A stretch of 32,372 nucleotides of DNA from the NCBI GenBank assembly GCA_903864315.1, contig CAIPFK010000223.1, positions 1-32,372 of the forward strand, in the 5' to 3' direction. This document shows, piece after piece, positions 927 to 19,832 of the stretch; position 1 is the stretch's first letter, and every line of letters begins with the position of its first letter. A program made the translations under genes and the position numbers. The stretch comes from an uncultured Burkholderiales bacterium. GTDB lineage: Bacteria > Pseudomonadota > Gammaproteobacteria > Burkholderiales > Burkholderiaceae_C. The notes under the pieces were generated by a model. It was not told where the DNA came from and ran no database searches. It was given only the letters and a program-made list of their open reading frames with translations.

Positions 927-2033
927 TCAGGCTGAGCGCAAGTCGTACTTGTTGATTTTTTCGATCAAGGTCGTGCGCTGCAAGTTCAGCAACTTGGCGG
1001 TTTTGGACACATTGCCCTGGGCCCGGGCCAGCGCTTGCTCAATGATGCTTTTCTCGATCTCGGCCAAGCGGTCTTTCAAAGAAAGTCCTTCCGGGGGGAG
1101 CTCAGGCATGCCTTGAGCGAGCATGATGATGTCCTCGACATCGGTCTCCAACTCCAACTCGCCTTGCTCCATTTCTTCCAGCACTTCCTTGGGCGGTGTC
1201 ATGGCCTGTGGGGGCACGGCAGCCGGGGTGCTGAGTTTTAAATTGCCTTGGATGAGGACCAAGCCTTTGGGCAAGAGTGAGGGTGGAATGGCGCGCAAAT
1301 CGAGTCGTTGACCCGCATAGAGGGTGCTGAATCGATCGACCAAATTGGAGAGCTCTCGCACATTGCCAGGCCAGGGGTAGGCGCGCATGGAGTCCAAAAA
1401 CTCAGCAGAAAACCGAATCGGTCCGTGTTGCACATGGGCGAATTTCTGCGCAAAATGAACCAAGAGCGGCTCGATGTCATCAATGCGCTCTCTCAAGGGT
1501 GGGGTGTTGACTGGCAAGACATTGAGGCGGTAATACAAGTCTTCGCGAAATTTGCCCGAAGCGATCTCGCTCTCCAAATCGCGGTGGGTGGCCGCGATCA
1601 CCCGCACATCAATGGGAATTTGCCGTGTCGAGCCGATGGGGTCAATGGTGCGTTCTTGAAGGACTCTGAGGAGTTTGACTTGCATGTCCATGGGCATGTC
1701 GCCGATCTCATCCAAAAACAAGGAGCCACCGTGGGCCAATTCAAAGCGGCCAAGCCGGTCAGAGACGGCTCCGGTGAAGGAGCCCTTTCTGTGACCAAAA
1801 AGCTCGCTCTCCAAAAGCTCTTTGGGAATGGCTGCACAGTTGATGGGAACGAAATTGGAGCCCGCGCGCATGGATTGTTCGTGCAAAGACCTGGCCAGGA
1901 GTTCTTTGCCGGTGCCGCTCTCTCCCGTGATCAACACCGTGGAGTTGGAGTTGGCAATGGTGCCAAGCAAGTCTCTGAGGGATTGTGCGGAGTCGCTTTG
2001 GCCAATGAACTGCGTGCTCGGTTTCATAACCAT
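927..2033 (-). CDS. fleQ: FleQ-like sigma-54-dependent flagellar transcription activator without N-terminal sensory domain
   Basis: This is a bacterial enhancer-binding protein that would remodel sigma-54 RNA polymerase by ATP hydrolysis. It is 368 aa. The AAA+ domain begins almost at residue 1: Walker A G-E-S-G-T-G-K-E at about 37-44, the sigma-54-contacting loop as G-S-F-T-G-A at about 84-89 (consensus GAFTGA, here Ala to Ser), Walker B L-F-L-D-E-I-G-D at about 105-112, and the arginine-finger region F-R-E-D-L-Y-Y-R-L at about 162-170. A linker rich in Pro and Glu (about 265-310) leads to a C-terminal Fis-type helix-turn-helix with R-T-T-L-I-E-K, which resembles FleQ more than FleR/FlrC. 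There is no receiver or FleQ N-terminal domain, so activity is probably set by expression level or by a partner such as a FleN/FlhG ATPase (inference). It is divergent from the flgP operon. The five sigma-54 promoters in the window are its likely targets. The Shine-Dalgarno is poor, and a second ATG two codons in is possible. Confidence 0.85.
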   Translation of the reverse strand: MVMKPSTQFIGQSDSAQSLRDLLGTIANSNSTVLITGESGTGKELLARSLHEQSMRAGSNFVPINCAAIPKELLESELFGHRKGSFTGAVSDRLGRFELAHGGSLFLDEIGDMPMDMQVKLLRVLQERTIDPIGSTRQIPIDVRVIAATHRDLESEIASGKFREDLYYRLNVLPVNTPPLRERIDDIEPLLVHFAQKFAHVQHGPIRFSAEFLDSMRAYPWPGNVRELSNLVDRFSTLYAGQRLDLRAIPPSLLPKGLVLIQGNLKLSTPAAVPPQAMTPPKEVLEEMEQGELELETDVEDIIMLAQGMPELPPEGLSLKDRLAEIEKSIIEQALARAQGNVSKTAKLLNLQRTTLIEKINKYDLRSA

Positions 2034-5206: not shown

Positions 5207-6550
5207 TTGAGTGAGCCTTGGGGCCGACCCCGTTGGGGGCGGCCCATTCTTTTGAAAGTCCTTGATTTGATATTTGGTCCTGACAACATTCTTGGCGCAC
5301 CACGCGTGCCAGTGGTTCAAATGGACAACCGACCCATTTGGGTCGAGAGCCCTGTGGCCCAGTCGCTGGGCCTCACCGATCAAGAAATCGTCCAAGCCAC
5401 CGTCACCTTGGAGCGGGGCTCGGTGAGGTTGTGGCTGAAGAATTTTTCCTTTGACGTTCCCACCACTTGGGGTTTGAAGCCCGGCGATCAACCGTTTGTC
5501 AGCGTGTTCCAATCGGCCTTGGGCTATGGATTGCATTTGCAAAAATCCAATTTGAGTGCGGGTTCGACCACACCGCTTGGCGACTCCAAAACACCGTCCA
5601 TGGCTGGCGTTGTTCAAAACAAAGGCGCTGCTTCGAATGCAGGGGCTGCACAGTCCGCTTCAGCCAGCGCCAACTCAGCCGCGAGTCTAAGCGCTTCACC
5701 CGTGGGTCTCAAGCCTGTGGGAATGGGTGCGTCTGCATTGCCTGCTGACTCCATGATGTCTTCAGCGGGTGCACCAGCCATTGCAATGCTTGGCTCTCGC
5801 ACGGAGATGCTGATGCAGCAACCCTTGGGGTTCGAGTCGGTGTCGCAATTGATGCAGCCCGACTTTTTGGCGCAACTGAGTGCTCAGATGAATTTGGGGG
5901 CTTGGTGGGCCCTGTACCGAAAAGTGGCCCTCTCCATGTCCTATGTGTCGGGCAATGCCTTGAAAAACATGGTCATGACACAAGCCAAGAGCAATGAGAA
6001 ACTCCTCAGTCTTGGAGAAAACACCAAGGATGGCCCCAAGTCTATGCTGCAAGAGTTGTTGGGGGGTCTTCAGACCTCGGAGGGATCTGACAACGGGGAT
6101 TTGAAGCAAATGCTCCAGCGCGGTGTGAACGAACTCGATGCCTCACAACTCCAAGCGGTTCAGCACTGGGCTCGTGGAGACTTGAACCTCAAGGTCATCA
6201 TTCCTTTTTTGGATGCCGATCCAGTGGATTTGCATTTCAAAAGAAAAGGCCGCCAGCAAGGTGAGCCCCAGGCGCCGTTGAGTGTCGACATTCACTCCAA
6301 GAGCCGAATGCTCGGTGAGGTTTGGCTCAATACCCAAATCAGTTTGGGCAGCCAAGTGGATTTGACCATGTGGGCCCTCAGAAGCGATGTGGCCGACATG
6401 GCCAGAGTCAAAGCCAAGGACTTGGGGTTTGATTTGCAGGATTCGGGACTGAATTTGAAGAGTTTTCAGATCTTCAATGCCGCCAAACCCGTGGAACAAG
6501 AACAACGCTCACCCACGGCCCTGGGGCGGGTGGTGGACGCCAAGGCATAA
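5207..6550 (+). CDS. fliK: FliK-like flagellar hook-length control protein
   Basis: FliK measures hook length and switches the export gate from hook to filament substrates by contacting FlhB. The C-terminal Flg_hook-type domain is recognisable at about residues 326-425, with L-G-E-V-W-L-N-T-Q-I, then V-D-L-T-M-W-A-L, then L-G-F-D-L-Q-D-S-G-L-N-L-K-S-F-Q-I-F-N-A. The middle (about 115-190) is a low-complexity Ala/Ser/Gly segment typical of the FliK ruler. The start is unresolved: TTG 5207 gives 447 aa, TTG 5252 gives 432 aa and ATG 5321 gives 409 aa. A terminator-like hairpin at 5221-5245 argues for a start after it. It is paired with the FlhB-like gene 47 bp downstream, which suits a substrate-switching job. 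It could be a FliK paralogue rather than the main FliK, which is normally found in the fli cluster. Confidence 0.7.
   Translation: MSEPWGRPRWGRPILLKVLDLIFGPDNILGAPRVPVVQMDNRPIWVESPVAQSLGLTDQEIVQATVTLERGSVRLWLKNFSFDVPTTWGLKPGDQPFVSVFQSALGYGLHLQKSNLSAGSTTPLGDSKTPSMAGVVQNKGAASNAGAAQSASASANSAASLSASPVGLKPVGMGASALPADSMMSSAGAPAIAMLGSRTEMLMQQPLGFESVSQLMQPDFLAQLSAQMNLGAWWALYRKVALSMSYVSGNALKNMVMTQAKSNEKLLSLGENTKDGPKSMLQELLGGLQTSEGSDNGDLKQMLQRGVNELDASQLQAVQHWARGDLNLKVIIPFLDADPVDLHFKRKGRQQGEPQAPLSVDIHSKSRMLGEVWLNTQISLGSQVDLTMWALRSDVADMARVKAKDLGFDLQDSGLNLKSFQIFNAAKPVEQEQRSPTALGRVVDAKA
5221..5253 (+). terminator. Intrinsic-terminator-like hairpin at the fliK 5' end
   Basis: GGGCCGACCCC (5221-5231), loop GTT, GGGGGCGGCCC (5235-5245) pair over 11 bp with one A-G mismatch, followed by ATTCTTTT. 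This has the form of a rho-independent terminator and could end the flgP-flgT-LysM transcript. It lies inside the longest version of the fliK frame, so either the start is downstream or the hairpin is a by-product of coding sequence. Confidence 0.45.
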
Positions 6551-6949: not shown

Positions 6950-7042
6950 TAAAAGGTCATGGTGGTCATGTGTTGGCCATCTCTTGCCGACGTTTGCGGG
7001 CAAGTTTATTGTTTAAACCTGGACCTGGACCTTGAGCTTGCC

Positions 7043-9013
7043 ATGTTGACCTCCTCCTTCGCGGCCCCTTTTTCTCGTGCGCCAGCAGTCCTTGCTGCGC
7101 CAAGCCTTGAGGCCAGGATCAATCCATTGTTGCAAGAAGCGGGTCGTTTGCACCAGTTGGGCGAGTTGGCACAAGCCAGAACACACTATTTGGATATTTT
7201 GGCCTTGTCGGGTGAGCATCCTCAAGCCTTGTTTTTGTTGGCCTTGGTGTGTTTCCAGTTGGGCGACTATGGTCCCGCCAAACATGGTTTGAATCAATAT
7301 TTGAAGCAAAGCAGCCAGGATTTGACCGCATGGGGACTCCTTGGACAGTGCTTGTTGGCGTTGGGCGAGCATGCCAGTGCCGTAGAAATCTTTAAAAACC
7401 TGGCCTATCTCGAGCCCAACTGTATGGATCATCTCACCGAGTTGGGACGGGCGTACCGGGGGTGGGGAGCAGCCCATTGGGATTTGGCACAAGAGGCTCT
7501 CGATACGGCTTATCGTCTCAGCCCACACGATGAAAAAGTGTTGGGTCAACTGAGCGAGTTGTACCTTCAAGAGCACCGGTTTGAGCTCGCGCGGCCACTC
7601 CTGGAAGAGCTTTGCACCATCGATCCCTTGAATGCCCAATACCCCTTGAACTTGGGGATTGTCCACCACGGTTTGGGTCAATCGGATCAAGCCCAATTGA
7701 ATTATCTCTTGGCGATGAAACTCAATGGGGCATTGCCAGCGGCCCATTACAACTGGGGTGTTTTACTGCAAGAGCGTGGAGATCACGCCTTGGCCATTGA
7801 GCAATACCGCTGTGCCTTGCAATTGGACCCTCAGTATGAGGAGGTGTATGTCAACTTGTGCGTGTTGTTGGGTCAGACGCAATCGTTTGAAGAGGCTTTG
7901 CAGTGGGTGGGCCATGCATTGGAAAAAAATGCTCACAGCGATGAATTGTATTTTTGCAAAGGTCTCGTGCTCGAGCGCATGGGCCGCACGCTCGAGGCGG
8001 TGCAGAGTTTTGAAAAAACCATCGATTTGAATCCGGAACATGCGAAAGCGCATTGGAACTTGGGGTTGAATGATTTGCGCATGGGCTTGTTTGAGCGCGG
8101 CTGGGCTGAGCACGAGTGGAGATGGCAAGTCGACAGCTTCAAGCCCTTGGCCTTGCGCACCTCTCAGCCCGAGTGGTCAGGTCGAGACATTGCACAAGCG
8201 CAGCACCGCGTGTTGGTCTGGGCTGAACAGGGCTTGGGCGACGAGGTGATGTTTGCATCTCTCTTGCCTGAAATGCGCAAGAGAGTGAAGCATCTGTGTG
8301 TGCTGGTGGACCCAAGGCTTGTTGGCGTGATGAAGCGCAGTATGCCCGACATTGAATTCTTGCCCAGAGGTCAATGGGTGGATGAACGCCATTACGACAG
8401 TCACATCAGCATGGGCAGTTTGCCGCGGTGGTGTCGCAACACTTTGGTCTCCTTTGAGGATCAGCCCAAGGGCTACTTGTTGGCCGACCCAGCCCGAGTC
8501 CAGGTCTTGCGAGAAGCACTCCAAGCCGTCTTGACCCCACCTGAAGTCGTCACGTGTTGGGTCGGGATTTCTTGGCGAAGCAAGAGCCACGAGTCCGGCC
8601 AGAGTCGAAGTCTTGATTTGGTCACGCTTGCCAAAGCGCTTCATGCCCCCGGTGTTCAACTGGTCAACTTGCAGTACGGCAACGTGGGAGATGAGATTGA
8701 AGCCTGTTTTGAGCAAACCGGGATTCGGGTTCACCAAGTGAAAACGGTGGATAATTTTTCGGATATCGATGGATTGATGGCCTTGATGAAGGCCTTGGAT
8801 GCGGTGGTGAGTGTGGACAACGTCACCGTTCATTTGAGTGGTGCACTTCATCAACCGGTGTTGGCCTTGCTGCCACACCCCTCGGATTGGAGGTGGATGC
8901 AAGGCGCATCCCAAAGTCCTTGGTACCCCAGTGTTCAACTCTTGCGTCAACAAACCGCGGGTGACTGGATGCCGGTCATGAACACATTGGAAAATTTATT
9001 CAAACACCCATGA
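7043..9013 (+). CDS. TPR-repeat glycosyltransferase-like protein 1
   Basis: This 656-aa protein has an N-terminal array of tetratricopeptide repeats (about residues 15-330; for example L-G-Q-C-L-L-A-L-G-E-H-A-S-A-V-E-I-F). A C-terminal GT-B-like domain related to GT9 heptosyltransferases follows: G-W-A-E-H-E-W-R-W near 352, W-A-E-Q-G-L-G-D-E near 393, G-I-S-W-R-S near 507 and S-V-D-N-V-T-V-H-L-S-G-A-L near 590. Proteins of this architecture are annotated as TPR glycosyltransferases and often lie in flagellar loci, so flagellin or hook-protein glycosylation is the leading idea; the donor sugar is unknown. ATG 7043 is preferred over 6959, because a GAG ribosome-site core lies 6-8 bases upstream and the sigma-54 start would fall at 6960. 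No signal peptide, so it is cytoplasmic. Its stop overlaps the start of the next gene (ATGA). Confidence 0.75.
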   Translation: MLTSSFAAPFSRAPAVLAAPSLEARINPLLQEAGRLHQLGELAQARTHYLDILALSGEHPQALFLLALVCFQLGDYGPAKHGLNQYLKQSSQDLTAWGLLGQCLLALGEHASAVEIFKNLAYLEPNCMDHLTELGRAYRGWGAAHWDLAQEALDTAYRLSPHDEKVLGQLSELYLQEHRFELARPLLEELCTIDPLNAQYPLNLGIVHHGLGQSDQAQLNYLLAMKLNGALPAAHYNWGVLLQERGDHALAIEQYRCALQLDPQYEEVYVNLCVLLGQTQSFEEALQWVGHALEKNAHSDELYFCKGLVLERMGRTLEAVQSFEKTIDLNPEHAKAHWNLGLNDLRMGLFERGWAEHEWRWQVDSFKPLALRTSQPEWSGRDIAQAQHRVLVWAEQGLGDEVMFASLLPEMRKRVKHLCVLVDPRLVGVMKRSMPDIEFLPRGQWVDERHYDSHISMGSLPRWCRNTLVSFEDQPKGYLLADPARVQVLREALQAVLTPPEVVTCWVGISWRSKSHESGQSRSLDLVTLAKALHAPGVQLVNLQYGNVGDEIEACFEQTGIRVHQVKTVDNFSDIDGLMALMKALDAVVSVDNVTVHLSGALHQPVLALLPHPSDWRWMQGASQSPWYPSVQLLRQQTAGDWMPVMNTLENLFKHP

Positions 9014-11316
9014 AGCCTCACGCTCACACGCCCCACCATCGCTCGACAGGCCACCACCAGACGATGTTCAAGCACCCTTGCCGTGTCGATGACGTCTTGC
9101 CGCGCGGGATTGAGTTGCTCAAGTCCAACCAATGGCGTGAAGCGTTGGCGTGCTTTGAGATGGTCATCCAGGCCCAACCCTCGCACACCTTGGCCCATTA
9201 CTTGGCAGGTCTTGCGAATTATCAATTGGCACACCCCCATGAAGCCATGGTTTGCTTACAAACTCACCTCGAATGGGTGCCCCATGACTGCAATGCATGG
9301 CAGGTCTTGGGGTCCATTTGTTTTGATCAAGCGCAATTCCTCGCCGCCAAACATGCCTACAGCCAAGCCTTGGTCTACAAGAACAATGACCCAGAACTGT
9401 TGGGCCATTTGGGCAAAACCCTCCAAAAACTCGAGGATTGGTCTGGGGCAATGGAGGTCTACAACACACTCTTGCGACTCAATCCTGAGAGTGTGTTGGC
9501 GCACCATCAACTCGCGTTGGTCCATCAAGCTGTGGCGCAGATAGAAGAAGCCCTCTTGCATTTCCAATTGGCCATTGCCTTGGATGACAAGTCGGTGGAG
9601 TTGCACTTTGATTTGGGCCTTTTGTGGAGTACACAAGCGTATTACCAACTGGCTTACTTGCAATTCAAGCGCTGTTTGATGCTCGATCCCAAGCACCATC
9701 CAAGTCATTTCAATTGTGGTTTGATCAAACACAAAGAGCGGTCATGGCCCGAGGCGATCGAACACTTTGACCACGCCTTGTCATTGCACGATCCCTATCC
9801 AGTCTGCTGGATTGCCAAAGGTCAGACCCTGATGGAGCAAAAGCATTGGGCCTTGGCGCAGGCGCTTTTTGAGCGCGTTCTTGAGATACAAATTGATCAC
9901 ATGGACGCTTGGTTGAATTTGGGCCTGGTCTTCAAAGCGCAAAAGCAGTTTGATTTGGCCCAGCAGTGTTTTGTTCAAATCCTCAGCCAAGACCCAGACC
10001 ACATTGTTGCGCTGAACAATTTGGGTCTTTTGTGCCAATCCATGGGGCACCATGAATTGGCGACGGACTGTTTTATTCAGTGCCAGAACTTGGACCCGAG
10101 TTACTTGGCGGCGTGCGTGAATTTGTCTGCAACCTATGAAAAAATGGGTCACTATGCCAAAGCCATGGATGGCCTTCAAGCCGGATTGGAGCGTATTTGT
10201 ATCGAATCCCCAGTCGCTGTTGAGACCCTGACGCGCTTGTTGATGAGGGGCGATGGCATGCCCGCGCAGCTGCTCAGGGGTTTGCCCATTGAATGGGCCA
10301 TTGGTCAGCGCAACTTGGGGTTGATGCTGCTCAGAAGCGGGGATTTTGAGCGGGGTTGGCCACTTTATGACTATCGCTTTTTGTGTGGCGAGGTCACCTC
10401 AAAGTACACCCAAACCCACAGGCCTTGGTTCAATGGACTCGCTGAACGTGGTGGTCGTGGGGAGAGTCTACAACGCCATTGTCCCGTGCGTCATCGTGTC
10501 AAAAAACTCTTGATCTGGGCTGAGCAAGGCGTGGGAGACGAGATCATGTTTGGCTCTTTGCTCTCGGAGGCCATGCCGTTGGCCGATGAGTTGGTGGTGC
10601 AAGTGGATGCAAGACTGTTGGGTCTTTTCAAACGCTCATATCCTGAGATCACTTTCATTGAGCGCTCACTCGAGCTCGATGATGCCCAATTTGACGCCCA
10701 CTTGCCCATGGGGAGTTTGCCCAGGATTTTGCGCCCCGATCTGGCTTCATTTGAGGCTCAACCGCTTGCCTATTTGATGGCGGATCCGGAGCGCTTACTG
10801 CAGGTGAAAGCGCAACTCGCTGCGTCCTGCCCGGGAGCTATCTCGCACACCACAACACCCTTGCGGTGCATTGGCATCTCTTGGCGCAGTCACAACGACA
10901 CGTTTGGCTCGCAACGCTCTTTGGCTTTGGTTCGATTGGTCAAACAATTGCAGTCTTTGCATCCCACGGGGATGCGCTTGATCAACTTGCAGTATGGAGA
11001 GGTTCAAGCGGACACAGATGAATGTTTCGAGCAAACGGGCGTTCGTTTGGAGCAAATGGCCACGGTCGACAATTTTCGGGATTTGGAAGGTTTGGCCTGT
11101 TTGATCCAATCGTGTGATGAAGTGGTGAGTGTGGACAACTCGACGGTGCATTTGGCGGGTGCGTTGGGCCAAACGGTCACCGCCCTCTTGCCACTGAGTG
11201 CTGACTGGCGCTGGCTTGAACAAACCAATGAGAATGTATGGTACCCAAGCGTGCGGCTCATTCGCCAGACTGCGTTGGGGGATTGGGACAGCTGCTGGTC
11301 GAGTCAGCCCACATAG
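9010..11316 (+). CDS. TPR-repeat glycosyltransferase-like protein 2 (paralogue)
   Basis: This 768-aa paralogue of the preceding gene overlaps it by ATGA, so the two are translationally coupled. The TPR array is longer (about residues 25-400). The GT-like domain has W-A-E-Q-G-V-G-D-E near 503, G-I-S-W-R-S-H-N near 621, N-L-Q-Y-G-E-V near 660 and S-V-D-N-S-T-V-H-L-A-G-A-L near 707, aligning motif for motif with its partner. The partner's E-W-R-W motif is replaced by G-W-P-L-Y-D-Y-R-F, and an extra Gly/Arg-rich loop (about 472-500) precedes the GT core. Tandem duplication followed by divergence is likely. The two may act as a hetero-complex on the same flagellar substrate or on successive sugars (inference). 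A shorter start at ATG 9064 is possible. Confidence 0.75.
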   Translation: MKPHAHTPHHRSTGHHQTMFKHPCRVDDVLPRGIELLKSNQWREALACFEMVIQAQPSHTLAHYLAGLANYQLAHPHEAMVCLQTHLEWVPHDCNAWQVLGSICFDQAQFLAAKHAYSQALVYKNNDPELLGHLGKTLQKLEDWSGAMEVYNTLLRLNPESVLAHHQLALVHQAVAQIEEALLHFQLAIALDDKSVELHFDLGLLWSTQAYYQLAYLQFKRCLMLDPKHHPSHFNCGLIKHKERSWPEAIEHFDHALSLHDPYPVCWIAKGQTLMEQKHWALAQALFERVLEIQIDHMDAWLNLGLVFKAQKQFDLAQQCFVQILSQDPDHIVALNNLGLLCQSMGHHELATDCFIQCQNLDPSYLAACVNLSATYEKMGHYAKAMDGLQAGLERICIESPVAVETLTRLLMRGDGMPAQLLRGLPIEWAIGQRNLGLMLLRSGDFERGWPLYDYRFLCGEVTSKYTQTHRPWFNGLAERGGRGESLQRHCPVRHRVKKLLIWAEQGVGDEIMFGSLLSEAMPLADELVVQVDARLLGLFKRSYPEITFIERSLELDDAQFDAHLPMGSLPRILRPDLASFEAQPLAYLMADPERLLQVKAQLAASCPGAISHTTTPLRCIGISWRSHNDTFGSQRSLALVRLVKQLQSLHPTGMRLINLQYGEVQADTDECFEQTGVRLEQMATVDNFRDLEGLACLIQSCDEVVSVDNSTVHLAGALGQTVTALLPLSADWRWLEQTNENVWYPSVRLIRQTALGDWDSCWSSQPT

Positions 11317-12400: not shown

Positions 12401-13303
12401 TCAAAGAACCTTGGCCTCACTCACACCCGTGATGACACCTGAAATAGATCGGCCTGAGTCGATATTTTTCAAGCGAATTTGATCTCCCAAGACGCCATCT
12501 TGCTGCGCCTCGGCCTTCACGGTGATCAAGAAACCTTTTCCTTCGCCAACCATGACCGTGACCTGTTGGCCTCGTTTGACCATGAGGGCGGGCTTGATGT
12601 CAAAGTTGTGCAAAACCTGGTCACTTCCCATGTCATGCAGTAACTCGGAATTTTCAATCTCTTTGAATTGGGTCAGAACTTGCGCGTCGGTATTGGCAAT
12701 GGGGGTGTCAACCCGGCGAAAAAGGCTGGCTTGGAGCACAGTGCCACGGCGCAAAGGCTGATTGGCCACCAAAACCGTTTTGATCACCTCATTGGGGTTG
12801 ATGCTGGGTTTGTAACTGGCGGGTAGAAAGGCAGGGGAGGGTGTCGGCGCGGCCAGGGGCTGCGCTTTCACGGTGTTGATGGGGCTCACTTCTACGGTCT
12901 TGGCTTGAAGCGCATTGGGCGTGAAAGTCGCCATGTCGGCGTTCTGGGCCTTGTTCAGCGCCATGGTGCTCACTTGAGCCGTCATGAAATACTGTGAGTT
13001 GGGCTCACTGCAGCGCGCACGGATGACGTTTTGGTTTTGAAAGGGTTGATCAAAACGGACTTGACCAGCGCAGGGCTTGACGGCCAATTTGCTATCCATG
13101 GCTGACATCTGAACTCGGTCCAAAGAATAGGATTTTTGTTGACTGTACCAAGCGCGCGCTTGCAGCTGCAGATCCATGGCTGCTGGGCTTGGGTTCAATT
13201 CAGTTTGTGCCCACACGCTTGCACAGCTGAGCAGGGTGGCCAAACAAGCTAATTTTCTCGCCCAACTGGGCGTGACGACACTGTATTGAAGATTCTGTTT
13301 CAT
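12401..13303 (-). CDS. flgA: FlgA, P-ring assembly chaperone
   Basis: FlgA is the periplasmic chaperone that helps FlgI build the P-ring. The product is 300 aa when started at ATG 13303, where a basic N-region and hydrophobic core (L-A-C-L-A-T-L-L-S-C-A-S-V-W-A-Q) form a signal peptide with cleavage after V-W-A. The reverse-strand CGAGG (plus 13311-13315) serves as ribosome site; the longer frame to 13477 is not preferred. The C-terminal half has the SAF/ChapFlgA pattern: V-L-V-A-N-Q-P-L-R-R-G-T-V-L, then V-K-R-G-Q-Q-V-T-V-M-V and later I-R-L-K-N-I-D-S-G-R-S-I-S-G-V-I. It is divergent from the LysM/transglycosylase gene and has its own minus-strand sigma-54 promoter. flgM lies 160 bp downstream. 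Confidence 0.92.
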   Translation of the reverse strand: MKQNLQYSVVTPSWARKLACLATLLSCASVWAQTELNPSPAAMDLQLQARAWYSQQKSYSLDRVQMSAMDSKLAVKPCAGQVRFDQPFQNQNVIRARCSEPNSQYFMTAQVSTMALNKAQNADMATFTPNALQAKTVEVSPINTVKAQPLAAPTPSPAFLPASYKPSINPNEVIKTVLVANQPLRRGTVLQASLFRRVDTPIANTDAQVLTQFKEIENSELLHDMGSDQVLHNFDIKPALMVKRGQQVTVMVGEGKGFLITVKAEAQQDGVLGDQIRLKNIDSGRSISGVITGVSEAKVL

Positions 13304-13370: not shown

Positions 13371-13386
13371 GGGCACAGCATTTGCG
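13371..13386 (+). promoter_or_regulatory. Sigma-54 promoter for the LysM/transglycosylase gene
   Basis: The site reads gGGCAC-AGCAT-TTGCG, with GG at 13372-13373 and GC at 13384-13385. The predicted start is near 13397, giving a leader of about 92 nt. It points opposite to, and its transcript would cross, the flgA sigma-54 promoter. Confidence 0.65.
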
Positions 13387-13444: not shown

Positions 13445-13460
13445 AGCAAAACTTGTACCA
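13445..13460 (-). promoter_or_regulatory. Sigma-54 promoter for flgA
   Basis: On the minus strand it reads TGGTAC-AAGTT-TTGCT, differing from TGGCAC-N5-TTGCW at one position, with exact 12-bp GG-GC spacing. The predicted start is near 13434, about 130 nt before the flgA ATG. Confidence 0.65.
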
Positions 13461-13488: not shown

Positions 13489-15240
13489 ATGAACGCTAAT
13501 ATAGATTCAAAAGTACTCTTTAATTACTCTCCATTGGATATTAATAATCCTTTTGTGACTGATACGAAGCCGCAAGACAAAGAGTTGTTGACGGGTGCTT
13601 TTGCGCAGGCTGTCGCCCAATCGCAACAAGCCATGCGTGTCGAAACTCCGTCAATCTTGGACCCCAAAGTGCCAACGATGACGGTGAAGGCTGGGGATTC
13701 TTTGACAGGCATGGTCAAAAACTTCCTGAATTCGCAAGGTTTGAATCCCAACACCAACGAGTTGCAAAAATATGTTCAAGATGTGGCCCATCAAAATGGC
13801 ATCAACAATCCCAATTTGATTTTTCCAGGTCAAAAACTCCAAATGGCGAGTTTGGACGCCAGCATCAAGGGCGGTGGTGCCACGCTCAATGCGTCAGTGA
13901 ATGCGTCGTTCAATGCCGAGCAGCCCATGCCGTCGCCCATTGCCTTGGGCAACGCGTCCAGTCTTGCACCCTTGCCGTTGAGCAGTGCCAGTGTTTTGAT
14001 CGCAAAATCGATCCCTTCCAATCCAGCGGTGACCACCAATCCTCAAGATGGGGGAGTCGCCACCAATCCGGAGGGTCATACTAATATAAGCAGCAATGCC
14101 AATATGCCCACGCCACTCAATGGTGGTGCCAACAATGTGAGGCAATTGCAAGCGGAGCGCATGGCCATGGCCAGAGCGGCCATGGGCAACATGATGAATG
14201 GCCAGATGACGAGTGCCTTGGCCGGCAGTCCCAATGCGCAGGCCAGTCTTCTTGGAGGAGGCGACTCCATGACCGATCCCCTGGGTGGTTTGTCCTCCAG
14301 GATGCTGGGTAACAAGTCAGGCGCTTTGGGCGCCAACAACTCACTCATGTCCACGCCACTCAATGGCGCTGCCAACAACGCCGATCCCTTCAATGGTGTG
14401 AGTGCGGCCAATCATATTCAACTCATGGGTCGTTTGAATGGTTCAGCGTATCCAGTGCTGCAAAAAACATTGGACCGCGCTGTGGACAAGGGGTTCATAC
14501 CGCCCCAAGACAAGCAAGCCGTGAATGACAAGATTTTGCAATTGGCGCGTCAATTCAAATTCTCACCAGACGACTTCGCCAAAGTGTCCCTGATGGAGAG
14601 CGATGGACTCAATCCAAAATCCACCAATAACCGATGCCACGGCATTATCCAGTTCTGTGACGGACCCGACCGAGGGGCAGCCAGTGCAGGCTTCGCCACC
14701 AACCCCAAAGCTATTTTGGGCAAAAGTGTTTTAGAGCAACTCGACATGGTGGCGAAATACTTCGACCAAACGGGACTCAAAAATGCGGGCCCCACGCATT
14801 TGGATGATTTGTACCTCACGGTCTTGACACCAGCTGCCAAAAGCGAGATCCGAACAGACGTGGGCTTGAACATTGCAGGCCCTCAGGCCAATTACTTGCA
14901 CGTCAACCGAGACGTGAGAGCCCCCATCACCAGAGACTCCCTCGTACAGGGATTGCATCAAAACGCACTCGATAAGTTGGGCATCGATGACCGCTCCATC
15001 AAAGACGCGTTGGCCACCCAAGCCAATGTCAGACCCAAGCCCTCAAAAGCTGATTCGGGCGCTTTGATTGCATCTGCCAATGCGTCAACCGTGTCTGGCG
15101 CACCCAGCGCACGCAATTCCAACAATGACGCCATGAAACTCAGTCTGCAAAGACTTCAAGCGCTGCGGATCAATGCGTATTTGAACCCAGTTTTTACCGC
15201 CGGACTGAACTCAACGGGTGCTTCTGGCAGTGGTCGTTGA
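13489..15240 (+). CDS. LysM plus lytic-transglycosylase-like protein, candidate flagellar peptidoglycan hydrolase
   Basis: This 583-aa protein starts at ATG 13489. It has no signal peptide or membrane segment. A LysM domain lies at about residues 64-119 (T-V-K-A-G-D-S-L to F-P-G-Q-K-L). A long Asn/Ala/Met-rich linker (about 120-305) includes an exact 16-bp direct repeat (14108-14123 and 14351-14366). The C-terminal domain (about 310-530) looks like a lysozyme-fold SLT enzyme: L-M-E-S-D-G-L-N-P with Glu370 as likely catalytic acid, then G-I-I-Q-F in the place of the family's G-L-M-Q, then L-E-Q-L-D-M-V-A-K-Y-F. Cys383 and Cys390 could form a disulfide. FlgJ in this locus lacks a hydrolase domain, so this protein is the likely wall-cutting partner for rod growth, perhaps exported by the flagellar apparatus (inference). 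It carries its own sigma-54 promoter. Confidence 0.7.
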   Translation: MNANIDSKVLFNYSPLDINNPFVTDTKPQDKELLTGAFAQAVAQSQQAMRVETPSILDPKVPTMTVKAGDSLTGMVKNFLNSQGLNPNTNELQKYVQDVAHQNGINNPNLIFPGQKLQMASLDASIKGGGATLNASVNASFNAEQPMPSPIALGNASSLAPLPLSSASVLIAKSIPSNPAVTTNPQDGGVATNPEGHTNISSNANMPTPLNGGANNVRQLQAERMAMARAAMGNMMNGQMTSALAGSPNAQASLLGGGDSMTDPLGGLSSRMLGNKSGALGANNSLMSTPLNGAANNADPFNGVSAANHIQLMGRLNGSAYPVLQKTLDRAVDKGFIPPQDKQAVNDKILQLARQFKFSPDDFAKVSLMESDGLNPKSTNNRCHGIIQFCDGPDRGAASAGFATNPKAILGKSVLEQLDMVAKYFDQTGLKNAGPTHLDDLYLTVLTPAAKSEIRTDVGLNIAGPQANYLHVNRDVRAPITRDSLVQGLHQNALDKLGIDDRSIKDALATQANVRPKPSKADSGALIASANASTVSGAPSARNSNNDAMKLSLQRLQALRINAYLNPVFTAGLNSTGASGSGR

Positions 15241-15333: not shown

Positions 15334-15349
15334 TGGCATAGCTTTTGCT
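15334..15349 (+). promoter_or_regulatory. Sigma-54 promoter for the flgB operon
   Basis: The site reads TGGCAT-AGCTT-TTGCT, a near-consensus -24/-12 element with GG at 15335-15336 and GC at 15347-15348. The predicted start is near 15360, about 60 nt before the flgB ATG. It probably drives flgBCDEF and beyond. Confidence 0.8.
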
Positions 15350-17036: not shown

Positions 17037-19832
17037 ATGTCATTTTTTACATCCCTGACTGGTATCAACGCGGCAACCGCTCAAATGAGTGTGACCAGTA
17101 ACAACATTGCCAATGCTGGAACGCAGGGCTTTAAAAAGTCGGTTGCAAACTTTGGCGATATTTTTGCGACTTCACCTTTGCAAAAAGCCAGTACCACGAT
17201 TGGACAAGGTGTGTCGCTCAAACAAGTGTCCTTGGACTTCAGTCAGGGTAACGTTTCGGTGTCATCCAATACGCTCAATATGGCGATTTCTGGTGACGGT
17301 TTTTTCCCACTGAAGTCACCCGATGGTTTGCAAAATATTTATACCCGTAATGGTACTTTCATGATGAATGACCAAAACAACGTGGTCACCTCCTCAGGAC
17401 AACAACTCCAAGCTGCATCAGTCGATAGTACCGGCAAAGCCGATCCCAGTAAATTGAGTGTGTTGACCATTCCTCAGCAAACGACGGGCATGGCACTTGA
17501 GACCACCCAAATTCAGTTGGGATTGAATTTCCCCGCGGATGCGCCTGTGATCATGGCTGACTTCAATCGAAATGACCCCACAACCTACAACAAAAGTACC
17601 GCCATCACGGTGTATGACAAAGGTGGTAACGGCTATTTGGCGACGGTTTATTACGTCAAAACACAAAATGCGTCGCAATCTTCTCCCAACAACAGGTGGC
17701 AAACCTATGTGTATGTGGGAGATACATTGGTCAATGCGGCGCTCCAACAAGCCACCGATCCAGGCACAGGACAGCCCTTGTATGTCAATAAATACGGGGA
17801 AACTGCGCCCTTGTCCCAAGTGACCGACCAGTTGGTGAATGCCAAAACAGAAATGTTCGCTTTGACCGATTTGACCGATGTGAGAACTTCTGCGCCGGCG
17901 TCTGTTTCGGGTGGATTGGCAGCCAACTTGTCTTCATTGACGCCAGTCGACTTCAGTCAATACACACCTGCACAGTTGACCAATTTGTTTTCCATCAGCA
18001 TTGATGGCAGTGCAGCGCAATCGATTGGTTTGGACAATTTGGCCACGGGTGTGGGTGCTCCTAAGCTCACAGGCGATCAAATCGCAGCCGAGTTGACCAA
18101 TGTGATTGGCCAAAAATTTGGCAATCAAAAGTATTTCAACTTCTCCAATCCTGCCAACACGACCATGCAAATGGCCATGACGAATAACAATGTGACACCA
18201 CCCGTGATCACTCCTGTGACGATCACATTGACTGGCGCGGGCACGACCGACACCACCAACCCGAACAACATGACTGTTTCAGAAACAACCGCATTGATTC
18301 AAAAGCAGTTGGATGCAGCATACCCACCCGTTGCACCTGCACTGCATGCGGTGACCGTGTCTTATGATCCTGCCGGGCAAAAATTCACCTTCACGCCGCC
18401 AAGCGGTCAAGTGATTTCATTCACGGCGGCCAATTCCTTGATCGGTTTGAATTCCAATTCATTGTCGCAAGATCCAACCCAGTCATCGATCAGCCTCACT
18501 GCGTATCCACAAGGCAACCCCATCACGCCCATTGCCCAACAACGTTATGGCGCATTGGTCACTTACGACAATGTGAATCAAAAGTTTGTATTCAGTTCGG
18601 GAACCACGGGGGACAACTCCAGTGTTTCTGTGATCCCCAATACCAACACCACCTCGCCTTCATATACCTTTGCGACCAGTCCACAAGGGGGCTTGGGTTT
18701 GAGCTTGGCCGATCCGTCAGGAAACCCCATCAATTACACCGTCAAGCCTTCAACTGTTGATGCATTGAGGGGAACGCAATCCAAGCCAGCCATCATGGAA
18801 GGCTCGCCGGTGGGGATCAACATCAATCAAAACTTCTCGGTGGATGCGTCCAACAATACGTTCGTGGTGTCTGTTGACAATGTGAAAGGGACCGTCACGA
18901 TTCCTTCACAACCCAACTACACATTGGAGAGTTTTGTGAAAGCATTGCAAGATGGTATCAATCGACTGGTGGGTGCTCCAGCGGGACCAGGCTTGACGGG
19001 CACATCGATTTCCGGCGTGAACGTGGCTTACGACACGTCCACCAACTCATTTAAATTTACCTCAGGCACCTCGGGTACCAATTCATTCATGAAGGTGAGT
19101 GGTGCGGCGGTGTGGGGCTTGTCCAACGTCAATGCGGCCAGGGGTTCAACGTCAACTTGGATCAAACCCACGCAAGCCTCCGTGATTGCCAATGGCACAT
19201 CGGTGGGGCAATACATTGATGCATTTGGGAATCAAACTTCCAGTGCAGACGGATTTGCCACCCTACCAGCATGGTCACCCATCTATCTGAACAAGGGTGA
19301 ATTGACCTTCGACACCAGTGGAAATTTGGTGTCACCGAAAACGGGCGCTCAATTGAGCACGGTGTTTCTCCCCAACGGTAAGGGATCTTTGACCATCAAT
19401 ATCGATTACTCCAAATCGACCCAGTTCTCATCTCCTTATGCGGTGCTGTCACAGTCTCAAGATGGAGCGCCAGAGGGAAGTTTGGTGGGTGTGGCGATCG
19501 GAACCGATGGTTTGGTGCAAGCCAGTTATTCCAACGGCTCGCAACACTCCTTGGGCAAGGTGATTTTGGTGACCTTCTCCAATGCGTCGGGTTTGCAGCA
19601 GATTGGTAATGCGTCTTTTTATGCCAGTTCAAGCTCAGGGGCCGCCAAGTTGGGTGAAGCCGGCTCTGCTGGATACGGTACGGTGCAATCGGGTGCCACA
19701 GAAAACTCCAACGTCGACTTGACTCAAGAGTTGGTGAATTTGATCACCGAGCAACGGAATTTCCAAGCCAATGCAAAAGCCATTGAAACGGATACGACCT
19801 TGACGCAGACCATCATTCAAATCCGTGGTTAA
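17037..19832 (+). CDS. flgE: FlgE, hook protein (enlarged, 931 aa)
   Basis: FlgE is the hook subunit. The ends are typical: N-terminal S-V-T-S-N-N-I-A-N-A-G-T-Q-G-F-K-K-S (about 19-36) and C-terminal L-V-N-L-I-T-E-Q-R-N-F-Q-A-N-A-K-A-I (about 901-918). Most FlgE proteins are about 400 aa, so this is more than twice as long. The extra sequence lies between about residues 250 and 800 and contains three related strand motifs: V-S-Y-D-P-A-G-Q-K-F-T-F-T (about 441), V-T-Y-D-N-V-N-Q-K-F-V-F-S-S-G-T-T-G (about 508) and V-A-Y-D-T-S-T-N-S-F-K-F-T-S-G-T-S-G (about 662). These would form surface domains on the hook. GGAG precedes the ATG. flgF starts 42 bp downstream. Confidence 0.95.
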   Translation: MSFFTSLTGINAATAQMSVTSNNIANAGTQGFKKSVANFGDIFATSPLQKASTTIGQGVSLKQVSLDFSQGNVSVSSNTLNMAISGDGFFPLKSPDGLQNIYTRNGTFMMNDQNNVVTSSGQQLQAASVDSTGKADPSKLSVLTIPQQTTGMALETTQIQLGLNFPADAPVIMADFNRNDPTTYNKSTAITVYDKGGNGYLATVYYVKTQNASQSSPNNRWQTYVYVGDTLVNAALQQATDPGTGQPLYVNKYGETAPLSQVTDQLVNAKTEMFALTDLTDVRTSAPASVSGGLAANLSSLTPVDFSQYTPAQLTNLFSISIDGSAAQSIGLDNLATGVGAPKLTGDQIAAELTNVIGQKFGNQKYFNFSNPANTTMQMAMTNNNVTPPVITPVTITLTGAGTTDTTNPNNMTVSETTALIQKQLDAAYPPVAPALHAVTVSYDPAGQKFTFTPPSGQVISFTAANSLIGLNSNSLSQDPTQSSISLTAYPQGNPITPIAQQRYGALVTYDNVNQKFVFSSGTTGDNSSVSVIPNTNTTSPSYTFATSPQGGLGLSLADPSGNPINYTVKPSTVDALRGTQSKPAIMEGSPVGININQNFSVDASNNTFVVSVDNVKGTVTIPSQPNYTLESFVKALQDGINRLVGAPAGPGLTGTSISGVNVAYDTSTNSFKFTSGTSGTNSFMKVSGAAVWGLSNVNAARGSTSTWIKPTQASVIANGTSVGQYIDAFGNQTSSADGFATLPAWSPIYLNKGELTFDTSGNLVSPKTGAQLSTVFLPNGKGSLTINIDYSKSTQFSSPYAVLSQSQDGAPEGSLVGVAIGTDGLVQASYSNGSQHSLGKVILVTFSNASGLQQIGNASFYASSSSGAAKLGEAGSAGYGTVQSGATENSNVDLTQELVNLITEQRNFQANAKAIETDTTLTQTIIQIRG

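Follow-up and report, generated by a model that had tools for sequence, protein, structure and literature searches.

The 32,372-nucleotide contig CAIPFK010000223.1 (assembly GCA_903864315.1) of an uncultured Burkholderiales bacterium, referred to here as the window, carries a flagellar gene cluster in which a 583-residue protein with a LysM domain and a lysozyme-like domain is encoded between flgA and flgB. Judging from sequence and genomic context, the product is probably (at about 0.7) a peptidoglycan-cleaving enzyme dedicated to the flagellum, taking the place of the GH73 half that FlgJ lacks here. A sequence-only reading had already proposed that a hydrolase-less FlgJ is paired here with a separate enzyme taking over the cutting, and this proposal is supported by the place of the gene in the cluster, by a sigma-54-like site upstream of it, by the single-domain FlgJ and by matches in which a Glu falls on Glu370.

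The protein consists of an N-terminal stretch, the LysM domain, a long variable linker, the enzyme-like domain and a variable tail (Table 1). As that reading had stated, it is a separate LysM protein: PF01476 scores 24.3 bits against a curated cut-off of 20.9 and is found at an expect value (E) ≤ 0.01 in 22 of 23 aligned sequences from the same genus. Relatives from other lineages all reach this E value (6/6), and four of the six score above the cut-off. The divergent flgA lies upstream of the gene and flgB downstream, followed by flgC to flgL, and the flgA and flgB flanks recur in all ten mapped clusters, which come from three families. Near the C-terminus, a pattern R-hydrophobic-x-A-Y (QALRxxAYL) was read by eye in 20 of the 23 same-genus sequences; a pattern search gave no match in the other window proteins.

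Conservation along the protein is highest at and around Glu370. Glu370 is the sole invariant Glu in the 23 aligned sequences, Glu453 being nearly invariant, and it is retained in all 22 domain sequences drawn from three families, which share 54 invariant columns including E370, the GIIQF region and the LYL...P...A stretch. An SLT-like fold had been suggested around this residue. The Glu is indeed present and invariant, whereas the SLT assignment did not hold: no domain member (0/22) matches PF01464 (SLT) at E ≤ 10, nor was any other Pfam wall-enzyme family found among the 22 sequences at this threshold, the sole Pfam matches being two chance ones of single members to other families. Instead, a profile of the 22 members matched PDB 9udh, which is named a lytic transglycosidase, at E 9.8e-5 with a Glu aligned on Glu370. 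Among phage protein families, phrog_4928 (unknown function) is matched by all 22 members (best E 1.2e-10), phrog_196 (baseplate hub) by 20, phrog_4067 (transglycosylase) by eight and phrog_2013 (lytic tail protein) by three, the last two at E 0.006 or worse. A tblastn search against phages returned 43 records at E ≤ 1, the best two among the matches listed (20 of 43) having E 2e-9 and 2e-5, and in BLASTP alignments to two phage proteins Glu370 falls on a Glu in both. A tblastn search against plasmids gave no match, and 13 stretches that fit a pattern in a scan of viral contigs yielded none that was confirmed. The 9udh and phage matches, the Glu-on-Glu alignments and the invariant columns make it likely that this is a lysozyme-superfamily enzyme with Glu370 as the catalytic acid; by these profile comparisons, the domain is of phage type and not SLT. 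The C383/C390 pair, considered as a sign of periplasmic life, was dropped because a Microcoleus phage protein has both residues as well.

Enteric bacteria and most beta- and gamma-proteobacteria have a bifunctional FlgJ. The FlgJ of the window, 164 residues long, has PF10135 (Rod-binding) as its only domain, in agreement with the earlier description of a rod-cap domain alone. Against the bifunctional model TIGR02541 it scores 92.6, compared with a cut-off of 193, and covers model positions 3–112 of 294. A FlgJ-type muramidase encoded elsewhere and required for motility had been named as one finding that would overturn the proposal; the assembly, 89.6% complete, gave no match to PF01832 (GH73). 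Within the genus of the window, FlgJ was detected in 21 of 37 genomes, 19 of which carry the LysM-lysozyme gene, and all 21 frames are 165–208 residues long. GH73 matches occur in four of the 37 (G006, G017, G023 and G030), and the frames other than that of G030 are stand-alone and endolysin-like, with no flagellar neighbour in their flanks. FlgJ is present in eight genomes from other genera of the same family. In seven of them its frame also contains GH73 and the LysM-lysozyme gene is absent; the eighth, G270, has a 158-residue FlgJ, the LysM-lysozyme gene and two GH73 genes elsewhere. In other families with the gene, FlgJ is single-domain in cluster C35 of G140 and in G183, G311 and G340, the contig of G281 stopping short of flgJ. 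FlgJ is thus single-domain in every gene-bearing cluster where it was seen. Of 24 genomes of the order from other genera, 18 carry FlgJ; its frame includes GH73 in 13 of them and lacks it in five. In genome G140 an ordinary flagellar cluster (L131, C41) exists alongside one that carries the LysM-lysozyme gene (L126, C35), and neither FlgJ has GH73. Seven loci from f13, f18 and f2 (L058, L099, L103, L111, L113, L116 and L117) are ordinary clusters with a single-domain FlgJ; they have no LysM-lysozyme gene, and no GH73 was found in the genome searched.

Comparison of FlgI from these clusters indicates that the gene-bearing ones form one distinct flagellar lineage, separate from the ordinary clusters that these families also have. 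FlgI is 61.7–88.8% identical to that of the window in gene-bearing clusters and 40.6–48.3% in all others compared; the FlgI of G013 falls in the upper range although no gene was found there. In a tree of 49 FlgI sequences, one branch with a support of 100/100 splits gene-bearing from ordinary clusters, with families f1, f13 and f18 present on both sides. This tree omits L048, which lacks FlgI, labels G013 as gene-bearing although its 82% complete assembly yielded no such gene, and drew a program warning of long branches meeting. Measured by BLASTP in the same way, the 11 closest FlgI loci outside the order share 48.7–54.9% identity with the window, nearer than ordinary Burkholderiales clusters, and 10 of the 11 have a FlgJ with both rod-binding and GH73 domains (two are cut by the locus end), so the GH73 half was probably lost. 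We infer that this loss accompanied or followed the gain of the LysM enzyme, and the cluster appears to have entered or moved within Burkholderiales horizontally.

Among 61 relatives, the LysM-lysozyme gene is present in 28, all from the genus of the window (28/37; 0/24 outside), and FlhA is found in 34 of these 37 genomes, namely 27 of the 28 with the gene and seven of the nine without. One genome of the genus, G017, has a FlhA that scores clearly below most of the genus and perhaps belongs to another flagellar system. Sampling 349 genomes across the order gave seven strong matches (G000, G270, G340, G140, G183, G311 and G281; E ≤ 6.3e-98) from families f1, f13 and f18. Fourteen weak matches in this sample (E 4.8e-11 to 8.4e-4) were not counted, as their profile positions place them in the LysM part. 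The class sample (369 genomes) yielded the window's own genome and two weak hits in G621 but no further strong match, and the phylum sample (329 genomes) only G000 and G270, each with at most 9 or 10 candidates scored per genome (four in the order sample), so that misses are possible. Carriers of the pairing between LysM-lysozyme and single-domain FlgJ are mostly uncultured bacteria.

The gene had been credited with its own sigma-54 promoter, and the comparison with relatives supports this. The site upstream of the gene is by itself not significant, since 25 of 200 shuffles reach 8 or more positions. Nevertheless, all 20 relatives checked, a subset drawn from outside the other-lineage loci, have a sigma-54-like site at −113 to −120 that fits the consensus at 9 or 10 of 12 positions. 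Similar sites on the flgA side and upstream of flgB, as well as a sigma-54 activator, are listed in Table 1.

How the protein would reach the cell wall can be considered from its N-terminus. Enteric FlgJ has no Sec signal and uses the flagellar export path, and HopP1/HrpH are known as type III-secreted transglycosylases. Gate recognition motifs take the form F-x-x-x-hydrophobic. The motif of FlgD is 36FLTLL40 (PMC8983047). For the present comparison, a flagellar type III early substrate was taken to carry such a motif at about residue 36–40 together with small non-polar residues near the N-terminus. In the window protein, F38 is the only fully invariant column among the first 63, the motif lies at residues 35–39 in all 30 same-genus sequences, and residue 5 is non-polar in 21 of 23. 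In other lineages, read by eye, the motif lies at residue 34 in L079, 30 in L081 and 40 in L083, and L080 has FEKQF. The claim that a Sec signal is missing was borne out by a hydrophobicity scan, a crude measure that differs from a signal-peptide predictor. Within the first 45 residues, the highest mean over 11 residues is 1.56 in the window protein and 0.06–1.56 across the 30 same-genus sequences (window included), as against 2.19, 2.45 and 2.36 for FlgA, FlgH and FlgI of the window and 1.73 for the non-Sec protein FlgK. By this crude test, none of the 30 has a Sec-like stretch, and no Sec or lipoprotein signal was seen in these or in six other sequences. An in-frame stop six codons upstream of the start in L003, L008, L009 and L034 excludes a longer N-terminus there. 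The protein is probably sent out via the flagellar type III apparatus.

Several observations weigh against a flagellar enzyme that replaces GH73 and leaves by this route. Eleven clusters have a single-domain FlgJ but no LysM-lysozyme gene: five in f13 (G048, G096, G180, G217 and C41 of G140), two in f18 (G053 and G251), and the rest in f2 (G037), f9 (G044 and G093) and f4 (G039). The link between the two genes thus runs one way, and loss of GH73 alone does not require LysM-lysozyme. GH73 genes are also present elsewhere in three gene-bearing genomes (G006, G030 and G270). Seven same-genus genomes with FlhA lack the gene (G013, G017, G020, G021, G022, G032 and G036), and a profile search of all nine same-genus genomes without it again found none. 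Six of the seven are 58–88% complete; G017, which is 99% complete, is so far a true exception and also has no PF10135 match. G008 (72% complete) has the gene, and FlhA was not found there. As for the export motif, 37% of shuffles of the window's own N-terminus yield one somewhere from residue 25 on; because it is so common by chance, its weight rests on its conservation, and it is absent ahead of LysM in L082 and L084.

The last point, together with the fact that type III signals share no common sequence and a motif match is thus weak proof, speaks for the alternative that the protein is a flagellar wall enzyme that reaches the periplasm by a non-type III route, with an unrecognised signal or without a leader. 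The flagellar enzymes SltF and BB0259 are both described as Sec-exported (PMC7277832, PMC8517470). This alternative is unlikely, given that a hydrophobic N-terminal stretch is missing from all 30 same-genus sequences and that four loci leave no room for a longer N-terminus. The closeness of the catalytic domain to phage proteins would also fit a phage lysin that was domesticated and retained in the flagellar cluster for some purpose other than rod passage, such as autolysis or the cutting of neighbouring cells. We regard this as highly improbable, because the flgA/flgB position is fixed in the mapped clusters of three families, the sigma-54-like promoter is shared with flagellar genes and the gene coincides with one flagellar lineage. 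Finally, a LysM protein could bind the wall as a structural part, for example around the P ring, with a lysozyme-like domain that is no longer active, yet Glu370 and its surroundings as the most conserved part are not what one would expect of a dead enzyme, and we regard this idea as similarly improbable.

A role like that of SltF with a different architecture had been predicted, and the comparison agrees with it. SltF of Rhodobacter (Cereibacter) sphaeroides is likewise a separate flagellar wall enzyme, encoded in a flagellar operon and acting together with a FlgJ without the enzyme half; unlike the window protein, it is Sec-exported and of SLT type, and it binds FlgJ through its C-terminus (PMC7277832). 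The window protein instead combines LysM with a phage-type domain, without a Pfam SLT match or a Sec-like signal. BB0259 (LTase-Bb) of Borrelia burgdorferi is another separate wall enzyme with a catalytic Glu (predicted in the window protein) alongside a single-domain FlgJ, with which it interacts, and its E580 is required for the hook to cross the wall (PMC8517470). In contrast to the window protein, it is described there as having a lipobox signal, the SLT domain PF01464 and, in place of LysM, 534 residues without homologues (PMC8517470). The bifunctional FlgJ shares the same proposed task, cutting the wall for the rod, but has GH73 fused to the rod cap, whereas here the genes are separate and the enzyme belongs to another family. 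Phage transglycosylase-type proteins (phrog_4928, phrog_196, Erwinia phage Joad gp233 and PDB 9udh) have a related catalytic domain with Glu on Glu, yet these relatives (9udh aside) lie in phage genomes, and no fusion to LysM within a flagellar cluster was seen among them. The single-domain FlgJ and the putative wall enzyme gene of the window share one flagellar cluster, as in other two-protein arrangements. In its anatomy the protein resembles SltF and BB0259, although it is no SLT-family member, and it probably leaves the cytoplasm along the path taken by enteric FlgJ. The conserved C-terminal motif may serve to contact FlgJ or rod proteins, a role that the C-terminus plays in SltF. Two-protein arrangements are already known, and the differences here are the enzyme family, the LysM domain and the likely export route. 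No description of a LysM/phage-type flagellar enzyme was found in the open-access literature, which marks the limit of the search rather than proof.

Table 1. Positions of the LysM-lysozyme gene, its parts and related features in the window.
Feature	Position	Strand	Basis
LysM + lysozyme-like protein, 583 aa	13489..15240	+	ATG 13489 to stop 15240, between flgA and flgB
Residues 38–42 FAQAV, putative gate recognition motif directing flagellar type III export	13600..13614	+	conservation
LysM domain, residues 65–118	13681..13842	+	PF01476
Lysozyme/lytic-transglycosylase-like domain, residues about 322–500	14452..14988	+	conservation, profile and phage matches
Glu370, predicted catalytic acid	14596..14598	+	invariant; aligned to Glu of PDB 9udh and two phage proteins
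Residues 557–564 QALRINAY, short conserved C-terminal motif past variable linker	15157..15180	+	alignment by eye
Sigma-54-like promoter of LysM-lysozyme gene, GGGCACAGCATTTGCG	13371..13386	+	9/12 consensus positions
Sigma-54-like site on flgA side, TGGTACAAGTTTTGCT	13445..13460	-	10/12
Sigma-54-like site upstream of flgB, TGGCATAGCTTTTGCT	15334..15349	+	10/12
Sigma-54 activator (AAA+ and Fis-type helix-turn-helix)	927..2033	-	PF00158, PF02954
flgA, Met start inferred at MKQNLQ (listed open reading frame reaches 13477)	12401..13303	-	PF13144; hydrophobic signal-like stretch
flgJ, rod-binding domain only, 164 aa	23587..24081	+	PF10135

Other genes of the window were also observed. The hook protein FlgE is very long (17037–19832, 931 residues), and an open frame of 1180 residues lies at 12906–16445 in L004. 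Two large tetratricopeptide repeat proteins are encoded beside flgN (6959–9013 and 9010–11316), the first with a weak match to glycosyltransferase family 9, and are perhaps concerned with flagellar glycosylation. A FliK-like protein (5207–6550; PF02120, under its cut-off) lies upstream of flgN-flgM-flgA.

If the LysM-lysozyme protein is the flagellar wall enzyme proposed here, it would be made together with the rod and hook genes and would exit the cytoplasm via the flagellar type III apparatus by means of the F-x-x-x-hydrophobic motif near its N-terminus. The LysM domain would then grip the glycan strands and Glu370, as general acid, would cut them, so that the FlgJ-capped rod can pass. Contact with FlgJ or a rod protein would hold the enzyme at the rod tip, the C-terminal motif being one candidate for this contact. 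More tentatively, and somewhat short of even odds, the whole history may be that a LysM-anchored transglycosylase related to phage baseplate hubs was recruited to the flagellar cluster, came to travel through the type III channel to the rod tip and let FlgJ lose GH73, after which the entire cluster moved between Burkholderiales families.

These findings bear on how a flagellum confines the opening of the wall to the spot where the rod crosses it. Export by Sec leaves enzymes such as SltF free in the periplasm, where rod proteins must restrain them (PMC7277832). An enzyme released solely via the growing rod would overcome this problem by its mode of delivery. Enteric FlgJ couples both functions within a single chain; in the window the two halves are encoded apart and could be deleted individually, which would make delivery, binding and cutting separable. 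The arrangement also suggests that a wall-cutting part has been exchanged between phages and flagella, and that a flagellar cluster is common to distant families.
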